Assembly: GCF_014202975.1 (NCBI RefSeq)
Contig: NZ_JACHHZ010000001.1
Span: 558,001 to 622,000, forward strand
Direction of reading: 5' to 3'
Source: Povalibacter uvarum
GTDB lineage: Bacteria > Pseudomonadota > Gammaproteobacteria > Steroidobacterales > Steroidobacteraceae
Length of the DNA: 64,000 bases
Below, in pieces: positions 57,233-64,000 of this stretch. Within the stretch, counting starts at the first letter, position 1. Each line of letters starts with the position of its first letter. A program made the position numbers and the translations under genes. The notes under the pieces were generated by a model. It worked only from the letters and a program-made list of their open reading frames with translations, was not told where the DNA came from and did no database searches.

Positions 57233-58252
57233 TTACGGGGTATTGCTTTCAGCGTTCGCTTCACGCGTGCCTTTCGCCACGTCGCGGACGCTCATGCCCA
57301 CGACGGGCAGCATCGCGAGGCCGCAGACGACGACCGAAACGTAGGCCAGCAGGTGGAAGAACAACGATGCCGCGATGGCTTCCGCGCCAGGAACGCCGAA
57401 CGGCTCCAGGGCGAGTGTGAAGGCGAGCTGGATGCTTCCGACATAACCTGGGCTGTTCGGCAGGCTGATGCCGATGACGGTGAAGACTGTCGTCAGCACC
57501 GCGGCGAGTGCACCCAGGTCCAGGTGCATGGCGTAGAGACTGAGCCAGATGCACGCGAACATGAACAGCCATTGCAGGATCGACATCGCCATCACGGCGG
57601 AAATGGAGCGGATGCTGCGCAATGCGTTGAGGCCGGTCGCGGCCGCGCGCAGCTGATCGAGGATGCGGGCGCGCAGAGGCGGCGGCGCCTTGCCGAGCAG
57701 GTGCTCGCACAGAGCCAGGCATTGCTCCGTCCGGAACACGAAGATCAGGAACAGGATCAGCGCGACGAATGCGCCGGCGGCCAGCAGCCAGATGACCGAC
57801 GAAAGCCATGCTGAAGCCGATTTCGCCGTCAGGAAGGCCAGCGCCGCGAGCAGAAGGATCGACAGCAGATCGAACACCCGTTCGAGCGCGACCGACATCA
57901 GCGAGGCGAGCATCCGGATGTTCAACCGCTGAGCGCCCAGCCACGCGCGCACGATCTCGCCGAACTGCATCGGCAGCAACGCACCCGCGGCGTAGCCGAT
58001 CATGACCGGCGCGAAGAGGCGGCCCGCCGTCACGCCAGGAACCACGCTGCGCAGCAAGTATGCCCAGCGAACGGTCTTCACCCAGTAGTAGGCGAAGAGA
58101 CTCAGCAGGAAGGGGCCGATCACCCACCATCGTGCCGCCGCAAGCACGCGGCGCAGTTCTGCGCCGTCAACATCACGAAGCGCGAACACCAGCAGGATGG
58201 CGCTCAGCACGACGCCCGCGCCGAGCGCGAGCCAACGCTTGTTGGAACTCAT
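57233..58252 (-). CDS. UPF0104 family membrane protein (flippase-like)
   Basis: This 339-aa protein has eight to nine membrane helices of the lysylphosphatidylglycerol-synthase TM/YbhN type. Family features are FLLSLFAYYWVKTVRWAYLLRSVVPG, YAAGALLPMQFGEIVRAWL and the late GISLPNSPGYVGSIQLAFTLAL. Relatives are proposed to flip or transfer lipids. Its ATG overlaps the stop of the LamG gene upstream on the same strand, so the two are coupled. A diverged paralog (59785) lies on the other side of the LamG gene. Confidence 0.85.
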   Translation of the reverse strand: MSSNKRWLALGAGVVLSAILLVFALRDVDGAELRRVLAAARWWVIGPFLLSLFAYYWVKTVRWAYLLRSVVPGVTAGRLFAPVMIGYAAGALLPMQFGEIVRAWLGAQRLNIRMLASLMSVALERVFDLLSILLLAALAFLTAKSASAWLSSVIWLLAAGAFVALILFLIFVFRTEQCLALCEHLLGKAPPPLRARILDQLRAAATGLNALRSIRSISAVMAMSILQWLFMFACIWLSLYAMHLDLGALAAVLTTVFTVIGISLPNSPGYVGSIQLAFTLALEPFGVPGAEAIAASLFFHLLAYVSVVVCGLAMLPVVGMSVRDVAKGTREANAESNTP

Positions 58253-59601
58253 CGCGCGACGCGAAGGGTCGGCGAGCTGTATCCGCGGCGTGCGAGCAAG
58301 GCGAGGAAGCCGAAGACAATGAATCCGAGTCCGAATTGACCGCCGCCACCACCACCACCCGAACCGCCGCTCGGCGGCGGCTGTGTCACTGTAATCGTCG
58401 TCACGGTAAGACCGCCGGACCTGTCGGAAGCATTGCCCGCAGCATCACGGGCGCGCACCGTGTAGATGTAGGTGCTCGCGGCCGTGAGCCCGGAGTCCGT
58501 GTAACTCGTAGCAGTCGGAGAGGCGATCAGGTCGCCGTCGCGATAGAGATCGTAGCCGGCGACGCCGACGTTATCGGTGGCTGCGTCCCAGGCGAGATTT
58601 ACGCCGCTTGCGGTGGCTCCGGAGGCGCGAAGGTTAGCGGGTACTGTAGGTGCCGACGTATCGCTGCCGCCACCCGATCCAGTGAGCGGAGGCTCGGCGG
58701 AAGAAAGAGCTCCTGACTTCAGATTGCTTGCGTTGATGCAGGCACCGCCGCCGCCCACCTGGTTGCATGGGCTCGTCGCTTCGAATGTGTAGTGGCCCGC
58801 GAGCCCGGTTTCGGCACCAGTCACCCGTGCGCGATAGTTCTGTGCGATGTCCGTGCTGGACTTGGCGATCGACCAGAACCGGAGTTCGTCGATGTTGCCT
58901 TTGTAGTCTTCGTACTGGGTGATCTGACCGAGCGCTGCCTGCTTCTCCGCGCCCCAGATCCAGCCCGCCTGCGGAAAGCCGGTCCAGTTGTTCCACCACT
59001 GCCGCATGTCCGTCATTTCGCTGGTCGTTTCGGTGTCGGAAAGCGCACCGTCGATCCACATTTCCAGCGTTGCGCCGCTGCCGCTCTGACGCCGCACCAG
59101 CGTCACCTGATGCCATTGGCCGTCGAGCAGGGAAGCGCCGCTTGCGTTCTGCACGGCGTGCAAGTCGCCGCTGCGTGCGTCCGCGGGTGCGCCGTCGCCG
59201 AACAACCAGCGAAGACGGCCGCCGTTGAAGAACTGCAGGCTGAACGTTCCGCTCGAGTAGCTGGTGTTGTTGTGACCATCGAGCAGGAAGTTTCCGGCGT
59301 ACCACCAGCTCGATGAGCTGTACGGCGTCGGGTTCGCGTTGCTCCAGTTCCGCAGCTGATTCGTGCCGCTGTCCGTGGAGCCGACCGGCAGCGAACTGTC
59401 CGGCCGCAGCCAGATCTCCAGCGTGAACTCGCCGGTGCCGAACCCGGCGGGAATGGTGTTCTGCCGCCCGTAGTCGTAATCGCTCGCCGCGTTCTCGAAG
59501 AACTCGAGCGAGCTCGCTCCCGCAACGGCGGTGCACAGCAATGCAACCGCGAACGTGGTCCAGCGCCAATGCGAGGTCCTGCGGGAAAGGGGCGTTACCA
59601 C
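58249..59601 (-). CDS. Secreted LamG plus fibronectin III protein with Gly-rich C-terminal anchor
   Basis: This 450-aa protein has a signal peptide ending AVAGA (residue ~29). A LamG/concanavalin-like domain covers ~30-270 (FTLEIWLRPDSS, GQWHQVTLVRRQSGS, LEMWIDGAL, GNIDELRFWSIA). A fibronectin III domain covers ~315-405 (APTVPANLRASGATASGVNLAWDAATDNVGVAGYDLYRDG). The tail is a run of glycines, a hydrophobic helix (FGLGFIVFGFLALLA) and RR. That tail has the three-part form of a sorting signal of the GlyGly-CTERM kind, not PEP-CTERM. Start GTG 59601 is the best available but has no good ribosome site. Its stop overlaps the UPF0104 start. Confidence 0.8.
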   Translation of the reverse strand: MVTPLSRRTSHWRWTTFAVALLCTAVAGASSLEFFENAASDYDYGRQNTIPAGFGTGEFTLEIWLRPDSSLPVGSTDSGTNQLRNWSNANPTPYSSSSWWYAGNFLLDGHNNTSYSSGTFSLQFFNGGRLRWLFGDGAPADARSGDLHAVQNASGASLLDGQWHQVTLVRRQSGSGATLEMWIDGALSDTETTSEMTDMRQWWNNWTGFPQAGWIWGAEKQAALGQITQYEDYKGNIDELRFWSIAKSSTDIAQNYRARVTGAETGLAGHYTFEATSPCNQVGGGGACINASNLKSGALSSAEPPLTGSGGGSDTSAPTVPANLRASGATASGVNLAWDAATDNVGVAGYDLYRDGDLIASPTATSYTDSGLTAASTYIYTVRARDAAGNASDRSGGLTVTTITVTQPPPSGGSGGGGGGGQFGLGFIVFGFLALLARRGYSSPTLRVAR

Positions 59602-59784: not shown

Positions 59785-60774
59785 ATGACGTCACGCCCGT
59801 CCTGGCTCGTCCTAGGCCTCGCCATCGGGAGCGTATTCCTGTGGCTGTCGCTGCGGTCGGTGAACCTGTCCGAAAGCCTGAACATCGCCCTGCAGGCGCA
59901 TCTTCCCTGGGAACTCGTCGCGATCGTCGCGTCGATCGCCTTCATGTGCTTCAAAGCCTGGCGATGGCGGGTGCTGCTATCGCCGCTCTACGACTTCCGC
60001 ATCACCCAGTTGATTACGGCGGTGTACGCCGGAACCGCGGTCAATCTCGTCGTTTCGCATGTAGGTGAGCTGGCGCGTGTGGCAATCGTCAGCAAGCGCC
60101 ATCGCGTGCCCGCAAGCGCGCTGCTCGGCACGATCGCGATCGAGCGGCTTTTCGATACGGCTTCCGTGCTCGTGTTTCTCGGCGTGCTCGTGCTGACCAC
60201 TGACGAAGTGGCGCCGATGGTCGTCTCGGCAAGCTATGTTGCACTGGGACTCGTCATCTGCGCGTTGTTCGCAATGGTCGTCGTATTCCTCTGGACCGAC
60301 GCTGCGCTGCGTCTTGCAGAGAAGCTCCTGTTCTTCGTCTCGCCGCGCTGGCGCGAGAAAATCCTCTGGCACCTGCGCGAAGCGCTGAGCGGTTTGAGCA
60401 CCATCCGCAATGGCAGGCTGCTGCCGAAAGTGATCATCCTGTCGGTGCTGCAATGGACGTGCATTCTCATCGGCATTCTCGCCAGCATGCGGTCGCTGGG
60501 ACTGACTACCGAGGCTGTCTCCGCGATCGCGGTGCTCGTGCTCATCGTCGTGGGGCTGACGCTGCCGGCTGCGCCGATTCACGTCGGCACGACGCAGCTC
60601 GGGTTCACCTTCGGGCTCGCTGCCTTCCATGTGACGGCGCCCAATGCCTTCGCGGCATCGATCGTTTACACCGTGTTCGTCCTGCTGCCGATGGTCATTC
60701 TCGGCCTGGCTGCGCTCTATCGTTCGGGACGCCGCTGGCGCGTGAAGGCACCAGCGGTCCGTACCGACCCCTGA
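59785..60774 (+). CDS. UPF0104 family membrane protein (flippase-like), second copy
   Basis: This 329-aa polytopic protein shares the family plan of the one at 57233: an early IAFMCFKAWRWRVLLSPL helix, AGTAVNLVVSHVGELARVAIV, and a late GLTLPAAPIHVGTTQLGFTFGLA. It has eight or so helices. A lipid- or polyprenyl-flipping role is possible. It is the first gene of the plus-strand run that continues with the SGNH-like protein (6 bases later), MBOAT, ACP and ligase. It could supply a lipid-linked or lipid substrate to that system. Confidence 0.85.
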   Translation: MTSRPSWLVLGLAIGSVFLWLSLRSVNLSESLNIALQAHLPWELVAIVASIAFMCFKAWRWRVLLSPLYDFRITQLITAVYAGTAVNLVVSHVGELARVAIVSKRHRVPASALLGTIAIERLFDTASVLVFLGVLVLTTDEVAPMVVSASYVALGLVICALFAMVVVFLWTDAALRLAEKLLFFVSPRWREKILWHLREALSGLSTIRNGRLLPKVIILSVLQWTCILIGILASMRSLGLTTEAVSAIAVLVLIVVGLTLPAAPIHVGTTQLGFTFGLAAFHVTAPNAFAASIVYTVFVLLPMVILGLAALYRSGRRWRVKAPAVRTDP

Positions 60775-60780
60775 TCCATC

Positions 60781-61833
60781 ATGAGCAAGCAGGCTTCCTG
60801 GCGCTCCATCGGGGCCGTCGTCCTCGCGGCGATCGCAGTGATCGTTGCCGCGGACTACGCGTTTCACTACGTGACGCCCCGCATCTGGCTGCGACAGGTC
60901 GACGATGGCGTCCGCGATTTCGCGCATTCCAATCCACGAATCCTGTCGATCAGTTCGAGTCACGGAAGATCGATGGATGTCGTCGGCAAGGAACTCGCGC
61001 GAAGAACTGGCGAGTCCGACGTCATGGTGTCGGTCGCGATGGAAGCAGGCAAGGCCACGCACTTTCAGTTCGTGCTCGATGAGCGCCTGCGGCCCTTGAT
61101 CGAGGAGCGCGATGCGACCGGCAGGCGGGTCCACGATCACCTGGAGCGCGCATTGCTGGTTACCGAATGGTGGGACAGCTGTTCGTGGGAGAAGGGCAGG
61201 CCCGCTGTTGAACTGCCTTCGCACGCGTGGACGCTCGGGCATTTCGTTCGCGATGTCGAGCAGCAGGGCATTACCCCCATCAATCGCAACTATCTGCGCT
61301 GGCGCTGGAAGCGGCTGCTGTCTGATTCCGTGCTCGTCACGGATCGTGGTCGCGGAGCCATCCTCAAGGACGGCATGGCGGAGTTGCGGGGCCAGCCGAC
61401 CGGCCGTACGGCGGAGGAAGAGAAAGCCTTCACCGAGTGGTGGCTGAAGTACAACGAGGGCGGCAAGCGCTGTCTCTTCAGTGACGACCAGGCGCAAGCG
61501 TACGCGCACATCGTCGACTACCTGAAATCCCAGGGACTCGACGTCACGATCGTCATCTTTGCCCGCAGGCCGGGCACGCTGAGCGAAGAGGCGATTCAAG
61601 GCACGCTCGCGGAGTACTCGGCGCGCATGCGCGAATTTGCCGATGAGCACGGCGTGCGGCTCATAGACATCACGACGCGTTCGCCGCTCGGTAATGACGA
61701 TTACATGGCCGACTACGATCACGTGAATGCCCAGGGCAACCGCAAGCTGGCTGGCTGGCTTCTCGATGGCGATCTCGCGTTCCTCGCGCAACACACCACG
61801 CCGACTTCGACAGTCGGCATGACGGCCCGGTGA
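60781..61833 (+). CDS. SGNH-like (DltD/AlgX-like) membrane-anchored acyltransferase partner
   Basis: This 350-aa protein has one N-terminal membrane anchor (~10-25) and a periplasmic domain. The fold signature is partly visible: an early ILSISSSHGRSMD with a likely nucleophile serine at ~60, and a late DYMADYDHVNAQGNRKLAGWLL with D311-x-x-H314 as the Asp-His pair. The TIVIFARRPGTLS strand resembles block III of DltD/AlgJ. Such proteins receive an acyl group from an MBOAT channel and place it on a polymer. It lies four bases before the MBOAT gene. No closer family could be named. Confidence 0.72.
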   Translation: MSKQASWRSIGAVVLAAIAVIVAADYAFHYVTPRIWLRQVDDGVRDFAHSNPRILSISSSHGRSMDVVGKELARRTGESDVMVSVAMEAGKATHFQFVLDERLRPLIEERDATGRRVHDHLERALLVTEWWDSCSWEKGRPAVELPSHAWTLGHFVRDVEQQGITPINRNYLRWRWKRLLSDSVLVTDRGRGAILKDGMAELRGQPTGRTAEEEKAFTEWWLKYNEGGKRCLFSDDQAQAYAHIVDYLKSQGLDVTIVIFARRPGTLSEEAIQGTLAEYSARMREFADEHGVRLIDITTRSPLGNDDYMADYDHVNAQGNRKLAGWLLDGDLAFLAQHTTPTSTVGMTAR

Positions 61834-61836
61834 CGC

Positions 61837-63306
61837 ATGGATTTCGTCGACATCGAAGCGTTCTTCATCCTGCCGGTCGCGCTCATCGCGTACTGGTTGC
61901 TGCCGCGTCGCGCGGGCTGGCAGAACGCCTATCTCCTGCTGTTGTCATGGGCGCTGTACGCGACCTGGAACTGGCGCTGGCTGCCTCTGATCTGGGTGGG
62001 CACGCTGATCGACTACTGGGCCGGCCGGCACATCGAAGCGCATCGTGCCGAATCCGGTGCGGGGCAACGACGTTTCGCGCTGGCCGTGAGCCTCGTCTGG
62101 AATCTCGGCGCGCTGTGCTTCTTCAAGTACGCGAACTTCTTCATCGAGTCCGCCGCTGAACTATTGAAGCTCTTCGGCGTCGATGCGGCGACGCCCGCGC
62201 TGAGCATCGTGCTCCCGTTGGGCATCTCGTTCTATACGCTGCAGAGAATCAGCTACGTGGTCGACGTCTACGTCGGCCGTGAGACCGCCGGCCGATCGCT
62301 GCTCACGTTCGCAGCGTTCTCCAGCTACTTTCCGCAGCTGACTGCCGGTCCGATTGCACGGGCGTCCGAGTTGCTGCGCCAGTTGGAGCAGCCGCGGTCG
62401 CTCGAAGCTTCCTGGATCGCGCGGGGTGCAGCCGCCTTCCTGTTGGGCTACGCGCTGAAGGGATGGATCGCGGATACCTACGGGCCGACACTCGTCGATC
62501 CGGTCTTCGCAGCCCCTGATGAGTGGAGTGTGCTTTCGCACTGGATCGCCATCGTCGCCTATGCGCTGCAGGTCTTCGGCGATTTCGCGGGCTACAGTCT
62601 GATGGCGATCGGCTGTTCGAGACTGTTCGCGATCGAACTGCCTCCGAACTTCGACTGGCCTTTCCTGAGCCGCAGCCTGCCGGAGTTCTGGCGACGCTGG
62701 CACATCACGCTGAATCGCTGGCTGTTCGACTACATATACAGTCCGCTGACGACTGGCCGAAGCTGGTTCCGCGGCCGGATGGATGTCGCGCTGATGATCA
62801 CGTTCCTCGCGTCGGGCCTGTGGCACGGTGCGGCTGCGACATTCATCCTGTGGGGCGCCATTCACGGTGTGGGCATGATCGTGCAGCGCCAATGGGATGA
62901 GCGCTATCGCGGCTGGTGCAGGGCCGACAGGCGTTTCGTGCAGTGGCGCAAGACGCTGGGTTACGCATTCGTTGCGTGGGTGCTGACGCAGCTCACGTTC
63001 GTACTCTCGCTAGTCCCGTTCCGGTCGCCCGACATGGCGACCGCCGGCCATTTCGCCGCGGGACTCTTTGCATCCGCGGGCACGCGTACCTTCGATCTGT
63101 GGATCGTCGCGGTCGCGAACCTGCTGCTCGGCTTTGGCTTCATCGTTGCGTGCCATGCGATCGCGACGAAGTCAGTTGCGCAGCTCTGGGAGAAGTTCAC
63201 AGCCATGCCGGCACCCGTGCGGGGCGCGGCCTATGGCCTCGGCATCGTCTACCTGCTGCTGTTCGTGCCGCTGGGCGCGAGCACTTTCCTGTACCAGCAA
63301 TTCTGA
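61837..63306 (+). CDS. MBOAT O-acyltransferase (DltB/AlgI-like)
   Basis: This 489-aa membrane-bound O-acyltransferase has about eleven helices and carries acyl groups across the inner membrane. The family active-site region is present: RSLPEFWRRWHITLNRWLFDYIYSPL, then SGLWHGAAATFILWGAIHG with H330 and H343, the two conserved histidines. The early LPLGISFYTLQRISYVVDVY and FFPQLTAGPIARASELL motifs match AlgI/DltB. Together with the SGNH-like protein before it and the ACP after it, it forms a Dlt-like set. Confidence 0.93.
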   Translation: MDFVDIEAFFILPVALIAYWLLPRRAGWQNAYLLLLSWALYATWNWRWLPLIWVGTLIDYWAGRHIEAHRAESGAGQRRFALAVSLVWNLGALCFFKYANFFIESAAELLKLFGVDAATPALSIVLPLGISFYTLQRISYVVDVYVGRETAGRSLLTFAAFSSYFPQLTAGPIARASELLRQLEQPRSLEASWIARGAAAFLLGYALKGWIADTYGPTLVDPVFAAPDEWSVLSHWIAIVAYALQVFGDFAGYSLMAIGCSRLFAIELPPNFDWPFLSRSLPEFWRRWHITLNRWLFDYIYSPLTTGRSWFRGRMDVALMITFLASGLWHGAAATFILWGAIHGVGMIVQRQWDERYRGWCRADRRFVQWRKTLGYAFVAWVLTQLTFVLSLVPFRSPDMATAGHFAAGLFASAGTRTFDLWIVAVANLLLGFGFIVACHAIATKSVAQLWEKFTAMPAPVRGAAYGLGIVYLLLFVPLGASTFLYQQF

Positions 63307-63315
63307 GGACGAACG

Positions 63316-63588
63316 ATGAGCCTCGCATTGCGTCAACGCGTCGTCGACTGGCTCGATGACAACTATCACTTCGGCGATACCGAGGCGCTTCTCGCGGGAG
63401 ACGACGAGAAATCATTCCTGCGCAACGGCATCCTCGACAGCCTCGGCTTCGTGAAGCTGATGCTGTTCCTCGAGGACACGTTCACCGTTCGCATCGACCG
63501 CAAGGACGTGCGGCCCGAGAACTTCGACAGTCTCGGGAAGATCGTGCGTTACATCAGTGTGCTGCCCGGATACCGGGAACCCGCTTGA
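63316..63588 (+). CDS. Acyl carrier protein (DltC-like)
   Basis: This 90-aa carrier has the phosphopantetheine serine S42 in FLRNGILDSLGFVKLM. The WLDDNYHFGD N-terminus and RKDVRPENFDSLGKIVRYI end are those of small acyl or D-alanyl carriers. It probably delivers an acyl group to the MBOAT. GAGGA lies before the ATG. Its stop codon overlaps the next gene's TTG start, so it is coupled to the adenylating ligase that most likely loads it. Confidence 0.9.
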   Translation: MSLALRQRVVDWLDDNYHFGDTEALLAGDDEKSFLRNGILDSLGFVKLMLFLEDTFTVRIDRKDVRPENFDSLGKIVRYISVLPGYREPA

Positions 63589-64000
63589 GCGCGGATCTCT
63601 ATCGTGATGTCGATGAACAGCGCGCGAACACGAGCGCCATGCGTGCGTTCATGGGGTTCTGTGCGAACCGGACGCAACTGAAGTTCGACGGTTATGCGCA
63701 GCTTCAGCAATGGGCCATCCGCGACTCGGCGGAGTTCTGGAAACTGTTCCTCGAGTGGAGCCGGCTTCCGGTAAGCGGCTCGCCCGATCCCACGGTAACC
63801 AGCAGCGATTGCGAGCACGCCCAATTCTTTCCGAACGTTCGGCTCAACTACGCGCGCTGTCTCCTGCGGTCGTTTGACGCTGAGGCGGAGAATCGCGAAG
63901 CCGTCGTTGGCGTGCGCGAGGACGGTAACCGCGCCGCACTCACACGAGCCGAGCTGCGCGCGGCAGTGGAGCGATTTGCGGCAGGACTTCGCAGCCTGGG
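63585..64000 (+). CDS. Acetoacetyl-CoA-synthetase-like ligase, N-terminal fragment (cut by window end)
   Basis: An open reading frame starts at TTG 63585, overlapping the ACP stop, and runs off the right edge after ~138 residues. The visible part is the N-terminal cap of acetyl/acetoacetyl-CoA synthetases: a LQQWAIRDSAEFWKLFLEWSRLP segment and FFPNVRLNYARCLL, very close to the WFPGARLNYAENLL signature of acetoacetyl-CoA synthetase. The ATP loop and catalytic lysine are outside the window. The next in-frame ATG is at 63639. In this operon it probably activates a short acid for the ACP. Confidence 0.82.
   Translation, partial: MSADLYRDVDEQRANTSAMRAFMGFCANRTQLKFDGYAQLQQWAIRDSAEFWKLFLEWSRLPVSGSPDPTVTSSDCEHAQFFPNVRLNYARCLLRSFDAEAENREAVVGVREDGNRAALTRAELRAAVERFAAGLRSL

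Follow-up and report, generated by a model that had tools for sequence, protein, structure and literature searches.

A conserved Dlt-like operon with a ligase of the acetoacetate-CoA-ligase family in Povalibacter uvarum

Introduction

We report here a four-gene operon from a 64,000-nucleotide stretch of the Povalibacter uvarum genome (hereafter the window, G000:C1:558001-622000 of the source genome), whose closest described counterparts are the Dlt system and the PatA/PatB pair. Dlt operons are also known from Gram-negative bacteria, for example Bordetella, so that the type of host alone makes no difference between them and the present locus; the available part of PMC11279074 contains nothing on Gram-negative Dlt operons. 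In the Dlt system, DltB takes D-alanine from the carrier protein DltC and passes it to a tyrosine of DltX, and DltD transfers it to lipoteichoic acid, according to the available text of PMC12148441. The same partial text describes the other MBOAT/SGNH pathways as working without a carrier, evidently from acyl-coenzyme A (acyl-CoA), with the FxYxxF motif on the MBOAT itself; PatA uses acetyl-CoA (PMC12148441).

The operon resembles Dlt in combining an adenosine monophosphate (AMP)-forming ligase, a small carrier, a MBOAT and an anchored SGNH protein, the fold of the MBOAT being closest to DltB and DltD being among the matches of the SGNH model. It differs from Dlt in its ligase, which belongs to the acetoacetate-CoA-ligase family and not to DltA, in its shuttle motif, which sits at the MBOAT C-terminus and not on DltX, and in its gene order, D-B-C-A in Dlt letters; D-alanine is not indicated for it. 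With PatA/PatB it shares a MBOAT ending in FxYxxF and a separate SGNH protein, but pathways of that kind are described as carrier-free (PMC12148441), whereas the operon has conserved carrier and ligase genes. The operon is real and conserved and would follow the Dlt logic, with another ligase and with the shuttle motif borne by the MBOAT. Judged by titles and the beginnings of abstracts, it is not described in the open-licence literature that we searched.

Our preferred reading, to which we give a probability of about 0.7, is that the operon encodes a Dlt-like, carrier-protein-dependent surface acylation system for an acid other than D-alanine. From the operon, its conservation, the protein families, the catalytic-type residues and the ligase clade, all read from sequence, we infer the transfer steps, the acyl group and the acceptor. 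The ligase would adenylate a small acid similar in size to acetoacetate, most likely acetoacetate or 3-hydroxybutyrate, and attach it to the phosphopantetheine group of the neighboring carrier instead of to CoA. At the cytoplasmic face the MBOAT would remove the acyl group from this carrier and move it through the membrane to its own Tyr486, in the C-terminal FxYxxF motif. The anchored SGNH protein would receive it on Ser60 and transfer it to a hydroxyl group of a glycan outside the cytoplasm. The operon MBOATs have a C-terminal FxYxxF although a carrier is encoded beside them, and so the system seems to combine a PatA-like shuttle with a Dlt-like donor.

Results and Discussion

A Four-Gene Operon Recurring in Distant Bacteria

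The first-pass annotation of the window had described four tightly spaced genes in the order D-B-C-A, and the open reading frames do stand in this order, all on the forward strand. An SGNH/GDSL-like protein of 350 residues in the DltD role (60781-61833), whose helix 7-31 is a likely membrane anchor, is followed by a MBOAT membrane acyltransferase of 489 residues in the DltB role (61837-63306), by a stand-alone acyl carrier protein (ACP) of 90 residues in the DltC role (63316-63588) and by the AMP-forming ligase in the DltA role (63585-64000 in the window, where it is cut by the window end). The ligase starts at the TTG at 63585, which overlaps the ACP stop codon by 4 bp (TTGA). Extending the sequence to the right, as that annotation had proposed, completed the ligase on the source contig to 659 residues, with its end at C1:623564.

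Related loci were collected by scanning GTDB genomes for the ligase with two peptide patterns, which gave 74 loci and misses some members, such as the Planctomycetota operon. Sixteen genomes, mostly Myxococcota but also Lysobacterales and Planctomycetota, carry a ligase of the operon type, and in 13 of them the SGNH, MBOAT, ACP and ligase genes are contiguous and in the same order (the source genome, L066, L068, L069, L070, L072-L076, L087, L129 and L158, the last found via the second ligase of the Planctomycetota genome G529). Locus L070 is labelled Spirochaetaceae; its ligase groups inside those of Myxococcota and the label may be wrong. The other three genomes have all four families in split form: G167 has adjacent SGNH, MBOAT and ACP genes, with the ligase on the opposite strand, 5.6 kb off, within a polysaccharide locus; G517 has MBOAT, ACP and ligase together and the SGNH gene elsewhere; G524 has SGNH-MBOAT on one contig and ACP-ligase on another. 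At the G517 locus, a gene for a 2650-residue megasynthase (L071:275-8227), with condensation, adenylation, carrier, ketosynthase, acyltransferase, carrier and aminotransferase domains, runs 4 bp into the start of the operon-type MBOAT gene and takes the place of the SGNH gene.

The coupling of the genes was tight at two junctions. The ACP stop overlaps the ATG, GTG or TTG start of the ligase as NTGA in all 14 adjacent pairs checked (the source genome, L066, L068-L076, L087, L090 and L129; in L074 the ligase may instead start at an ATG that follows the overlapping TTG by 6 bp), the L158 ligase starts with the same overlap (ATGA), and the SGNH and MBOAT genes overlap by 4 bp in 9 of the 11 operons measured. 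Relatives of the ACP, the MBOAT and the SGNH protein were found near 17, 16 and 15, respectively, of 17 operon-type ligase loci (G167 being counted twice), near none of 20 loci with ligase-carrier fusions and near none of 39 housekeeping-type loci, some of which are short or partial. Pairwise identities of the four proteins covary over 12 loci (r 0.78-0.96), as those of any orthologue set would. Because the four-gene order recurs in distant bacteria, it reflects more than chance; an adjacency of the four genes by chance was ruled out by this conserved order and by the NTGA overlap.

The operon type is rare near the source genome. Of the 196 genomes in the order sample, 34 were matched by the MBOAT query (E <=1e-20) and 139 by the ligase query (E <=1e-100), and only the source genome and G167 had relatives of both MBOAT and ligase above 50% identity. 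The class sample contained the ligase type in the source genome only (1/321, E <=1e-160). In the class of the Myxococcota genome G514 the ligase type was present in 8 of 52 genomes, all eight already in our set.

The SGNH Protein, the MBOAT and the Carrier

The MBOAT matches PF03062 with 108.6 bits (cut-off 27) and the DltB equivalog TIGR04091 with 162.3 bits, below its cut-off of 375. Its best solved relative by sequence is DltB (8.4e-36), which is also the best fold match (6.3e-14) of its structure model (mean predicted local distance difference test score, pLDDT, 80.1); the last 12 residues of this model, which include the shuttle motif, have pLDDT <50. His289, His330 and Tyr486 are kept in 14 of 14 operon relatives. 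The C-terminus reads FLYQQF, with Tyr486 as the shuttle residue, and FxYxxF ends all 16 operon-type MBOATs.

For comparison we used 31 ordinary MBOATs (28 from order-sample loci and three others, Myxococcota MBOATs being left out), from which the operon MBOATs were separated by one branch in a quick tree (Shimodaira-Hasegawa-like approximate likelihood ratio test, SH-aLRT, 100). The residue that follows the shuttle tyrosine is aromatic in 30 of the 31 ordinary MBOATs and in none of the 16 operon-type ones, where it is Ala, Gly, Gln or Arg; this difference may relate to the acyl group.

The other two partners were assigned by weaker matches. The SGNH protein scores 32.7 bits on PF13472, just below the cut-off of 32.9, and its sequence profile retrieved a best match of only E 1.1 among solved structures. 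Its AlphaFold model (mean pLDDT 85.6) has 23 matches at E <=0.001, which include GDSL esterases and DltD; the template modelling scores (TM-scores) of the listed DltD chains are modest, 0.35-0.44 on the query. Ser60, Asp311 and His314 are present in 13 of 13 relatives. The ACP gives a weak PF00550 match (17.6 bits, cut-off 20.8) and a weak match, below cut-off, to the DltC model; its Ser42, in ILDSLGF, is invariant in 15 of 15 relatives.

The Ligase Belongs to a Clade Associated With Carriers

The ligase matches PF00501 and exceeds the cut-offs of both acetoacetate-CoA-ligase models, TIGR01217 (621.3 bits, cut-off 520.9) and PRK03584 (676.3, cut-off 639), and its best solved match is the acetoacetate-CoA ligase 4wd1 (4.1e-129). 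The DltA model TIGR01734 is absent from the 25 best of 83 families for this ligase. The initial description of the enzyme as acetoacetyl-CoA-synthetase-like and not DltA thus agrees with its family assignment and with its place in a carrier-type clade of acetoacetate ligases.

These database names are what favors the simplest alternative, that a housekeeping acetoacetyl-CoA synthetase stands by chance behind a Dlt-like trio. The source genome, however, has a separate housekeeping copy (C3:1113703-1115610), which is 39% identical to the operon ligase and scores 871.9 bits on TIGR01217 against 621.3. We built two ligase trees, one of 97 rows (L067, L107, L132, L133 and L135-L138 having been dropped as duplicate or partial) and a careful one of 49 hand-selected rows. 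In both, the operon ligases formed one clade (99/96 in the 49-row tree), their sister group was made of carrier-fused ligases (100/99) and the housekeeping enzymes stood apart (100/100). Compared with the housekeeping synthetase (TIGR01217; 4wd1), the operon ligase shows homology over its full length and shares Lys619, the phosphate-binding loop and the acyl-pocket columns; it differs in having mostly lost the CoA-side basic columns, in belonging to a clade of its own and in its coupling to a carrier gene. With a separate genome copy, a clade of its own, an operon conserved in distant bacteria and no partner genes at the 39 housekeeping loci, the housekeeping explanation is contradicted and we consider it extremely improbable. 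The first-pass annotation had named a housekeeping enzyme found equally without the MBOAT and ACP genes as what would overturn its proposal; the ACP accompanies all 17 operon-type loci and none of the housekeeping ones.

The sister clade consists of ligase-carrier fusions (L077-L086, L088, L089, L091-L094, L107, L112, L124 and L128), about 1000-1200 residues long where complete, in alpha- and betaproteobacteria, mostly Bradyrhizobium and Acetobacteraceae-type. They are the nearest relatives of the ligase (44-50% identical to it) and, as in the operon, a carrier follows the ligase; unlike in the operon, the carrier is in the same chain and a further domain comes after it, identified as GNAT in L086, AAC(3)-like in L085 and thioesterase in L091 and L093. 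A Pfam carrier domain was detected in all six fused tails scanned, and a pattern for the serine motif hit 16 of 20 tails, with which the remaining four (L077, L079, L082 and L086) align; two of those four are among the six positive by Pfam. In the three fusion-type genomes searched, the operon SGNH family was absent and MBOATs were distant (best E 1.1e-82) or missing. Since its members have a carrier either within the same chain or encoded by a coupled gene, this ligase clade most likely loads carriers.

Phosphopantetheinyl transferase genes (PF01648) adjoin the operon of L087 and the fusion ligase of L091, and in L070 such a gene is found 4.5 kb upstream of the operon. A second ligase of the carrier-type group in Planctomycetota (L095:9857-11869) branches more deeply and has no fused carrier; it was placed in no ligase group, and its flanks showed no relatives of ACP, MBOAT or SGNH and no carrier.

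Ligase Residues and the Identity of the Acyl Group

Residue columns were counted over 92 rows (15 operon, 19 fusion and 58 housekeeping; L130, L131, L134 and L139 were also left out, and L158 was not included). Pocket columns 324, 325, 397, 398, 423 and 424 and Lys619 do not vary over the 92 rows, which makes an acetoacetate-like acid our best guess for the substrate. Columns 328 and 395, Leu in 57 and 52 of the 58 housekeeping rows, are Gln in 13 and 11 of the 15 operon rows. The earlier proposal of transfer via a dedicated carrier is strengthened by the conserved operon, the carrier-fused sister clade and the altered CoA side described below; acetyl, one of the groups it had listed, appears unlikely because the acetoacetate-type pocket columns are retained. 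Chemistry of the 3-hydroxybutyryl type has a precedent, since an exopolysaccharide of Rhizobium leguminosarum bears 3-hydroxybutanoyl substituents (PMC11598398, in its available part). The acetoacetyl-carrier of lyngbyapeptin was considered as a parallel and rejected as unrelated, the acetoacetyl-carrier being, in the available part of the source, proposed to be made by a polyketide synthase.

The same columns bear on whether the system could be a true D-alanine or other amino-acid Dlt system, in which the acetoacetate-ligase scaffold now activates an amino acid. The operon has the same four roles as Dlt, and column 531, Gly in 57 of 58 housekeeping rows, is Arg in 31 of the 34 carrier-type rows, an arginine that we take to resemble the A8 motif of amino-acid adenylation domains. 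The checked pocket columns are nevertheless unchanged, and the ligase is far from DltA (the G167 ligase scores 54.5 on TIGR01734, cut-off 559.85); we regard an amino-acid substrate as improbable.

On the CoA side, column 594 holds Arg in 52 of the 58 housekeeping rows, against 2 of the 15 operon and 1 of the 19 fusion rows. Lys or Arg stands at column 205 in 53, 3 and 2 rows of the same sets, and Arg at column 600 in 57 of 58 housekeeping rows and 0 of the 34 others. Column 594 aligns with Arg584 of Acs, a correspondence that partly presumes the Salmonella Acs numbering, and column 205 is taken by us to be Acs Arg194. Acs Arg584 binds the 3'-phosphate of CoA, according to the available text of PMC10455477.

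These losses argue against a working mode like that of PatAB, in which the MBOAT/SGNH pair would acylate from acyl-CoA, the ligase would supply acetoacetyl-CoA and the carrier would serve something else. So do the tight coupling of ACP and ligase genes, through the invariable NTGA overlap and the constant presence of the ACP, and the fusion of the sister ligases to carriers. Several observations nonetheless favor CoA or weigh otherwise against our proposal. The ligase scores above the NCBI cut-off for acetoacetate-CoA ligases, so CoA activity is possible, and 5 of the 15 operon rows keep Lys or Arg at column 594 (three of them Lys). The housekeeping copy of the source genome itself has Gly at this column, and column 202, which corresponds to Acs Arg191, the strongest CoA contact, is Tyr, Phe or Trp in 58 of 58 housekeeping rows. 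The CoA-side changes are clade-level and hence represent few independent events. The MBOAT has its own shuttle motif like PatA, and FxYxxF, being also present in 31 of 31 ordinary MBOATs, is not specific to the operon type. Relatives of the phosphopantetheinyl transferases occur at only 2 of 17 operon-type loci, the SGNH reading frame of G517 is interrupted by one stop, and the operon neighbors point to no single acceptor. On balance we find the acyl-CoA explanation unlikely, if less so than an amino-acid system, and retain carrier-dependent acylation as the preferred reading.

More tentatively, at somewhat less than even odds, the operon may represent a second carrier-dependent MBOAT/SGNH acylation system, besides D-alanylation, in at least Pseudomonadota, Myxococcota and Planctomycetota, which would place acetoacetyl (a reactive ketone) or 3-hydroxybutyryl esters on surface glycans, its ligase belonging to a wider carrier-loading clade whose members pass the database model and would therefore be named acetoacetate-CoA ligase. 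The operon suggests that the Dlt logic of ligase, carrier, MBOAT and SGNH protein is a modular route by which other acids than D-alanine can cross the membrane, and that carrier proteins may be what a clade scoring as acetoacetate-CoA ligase in fact loads. Automatic annotation can hide such an operon, which offers a direct test case for a surface ester.

The Acceptor and the XrtA Locus

A surface glycan in general is the likely acceptor. At 4.2-17.7 kb, some 43 kb away from the operon, the window contains the core genes of an XrtA exopolysaccharide locus, which encode PrsK, PrsR, XrtA (211.2 bits, cut-off 208), an export protein, a tyrosine kinase and a deacetylase. Further glycan genes extend up to 47 kb, including a wecB-like epimerase gene (46.1-47.3 kb) within about 14 kb of the operon. 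The first-pass annotation had tied the operon to this exopolysaccharide, a tie that turned out to be weak: among the 16 genomes that carry the ligase type, the source genome alone has XrtA above cut-off, and G529 has a weaker exosortase match (119 bits). A dependence of the operon on XrtA was rejected on this count, and the XrtA polymer as acceptor is only a possibility.

We hold it evenly balanced whether the acyl group would be transferred as proposed to an acceptor other than the XrtA exopolysaccharide, namely lipopolysaccharide, peptidoglycan or a glycolipid, an alternative that overlaps with the preferred reading. Besides the scarcity of XrtA, it is favored by the operon of L068, which adjoins LGT, DsbA/VKOR and a sensor kinase, and by that of L066, which adjoins a transglycosylase; several operons adjoin regulators or lipoprotein/redox genes. 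Against it stand the glycan genes that adjoin the operon in G167, L070 and L087 and those near it in the source genome.

The source genome has a second exosortase (C1:139149-139922), which scores 194.8 bits, just under the XrtA cut-off of 208. G024, a genome of the same genus, encodes another MBOAT (39% identical) directly followed by the XrtA-associated ligase TIGR03098 (L065:7414-10535; 653 bits, cut-off 592), a different pairing of a MBOAT with an AMP-forming ligase.

Genes Flanking the Operon

Six bp upstream of the operon, on the same strand, lies a gene for an LPG_synthase_TM/flippase-like membrane protein (59785-60774), which is possibly co-transcribed with the operon in the source genome; none of the 74 loci from the ligase scan has a relative of it, and it is not conserved with the operon. 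On the 3' side of the ligase, a gene for a sigma-54-type response regulator is encoded on the opposite strand. Further upstream, on the reverse strand (58249-59601), a protein with laminin-G and fibronectin type III domains continues into a glycine-rich stretch and a hydrophobic C-terminal tail, which we take to resemble a sorting signal.

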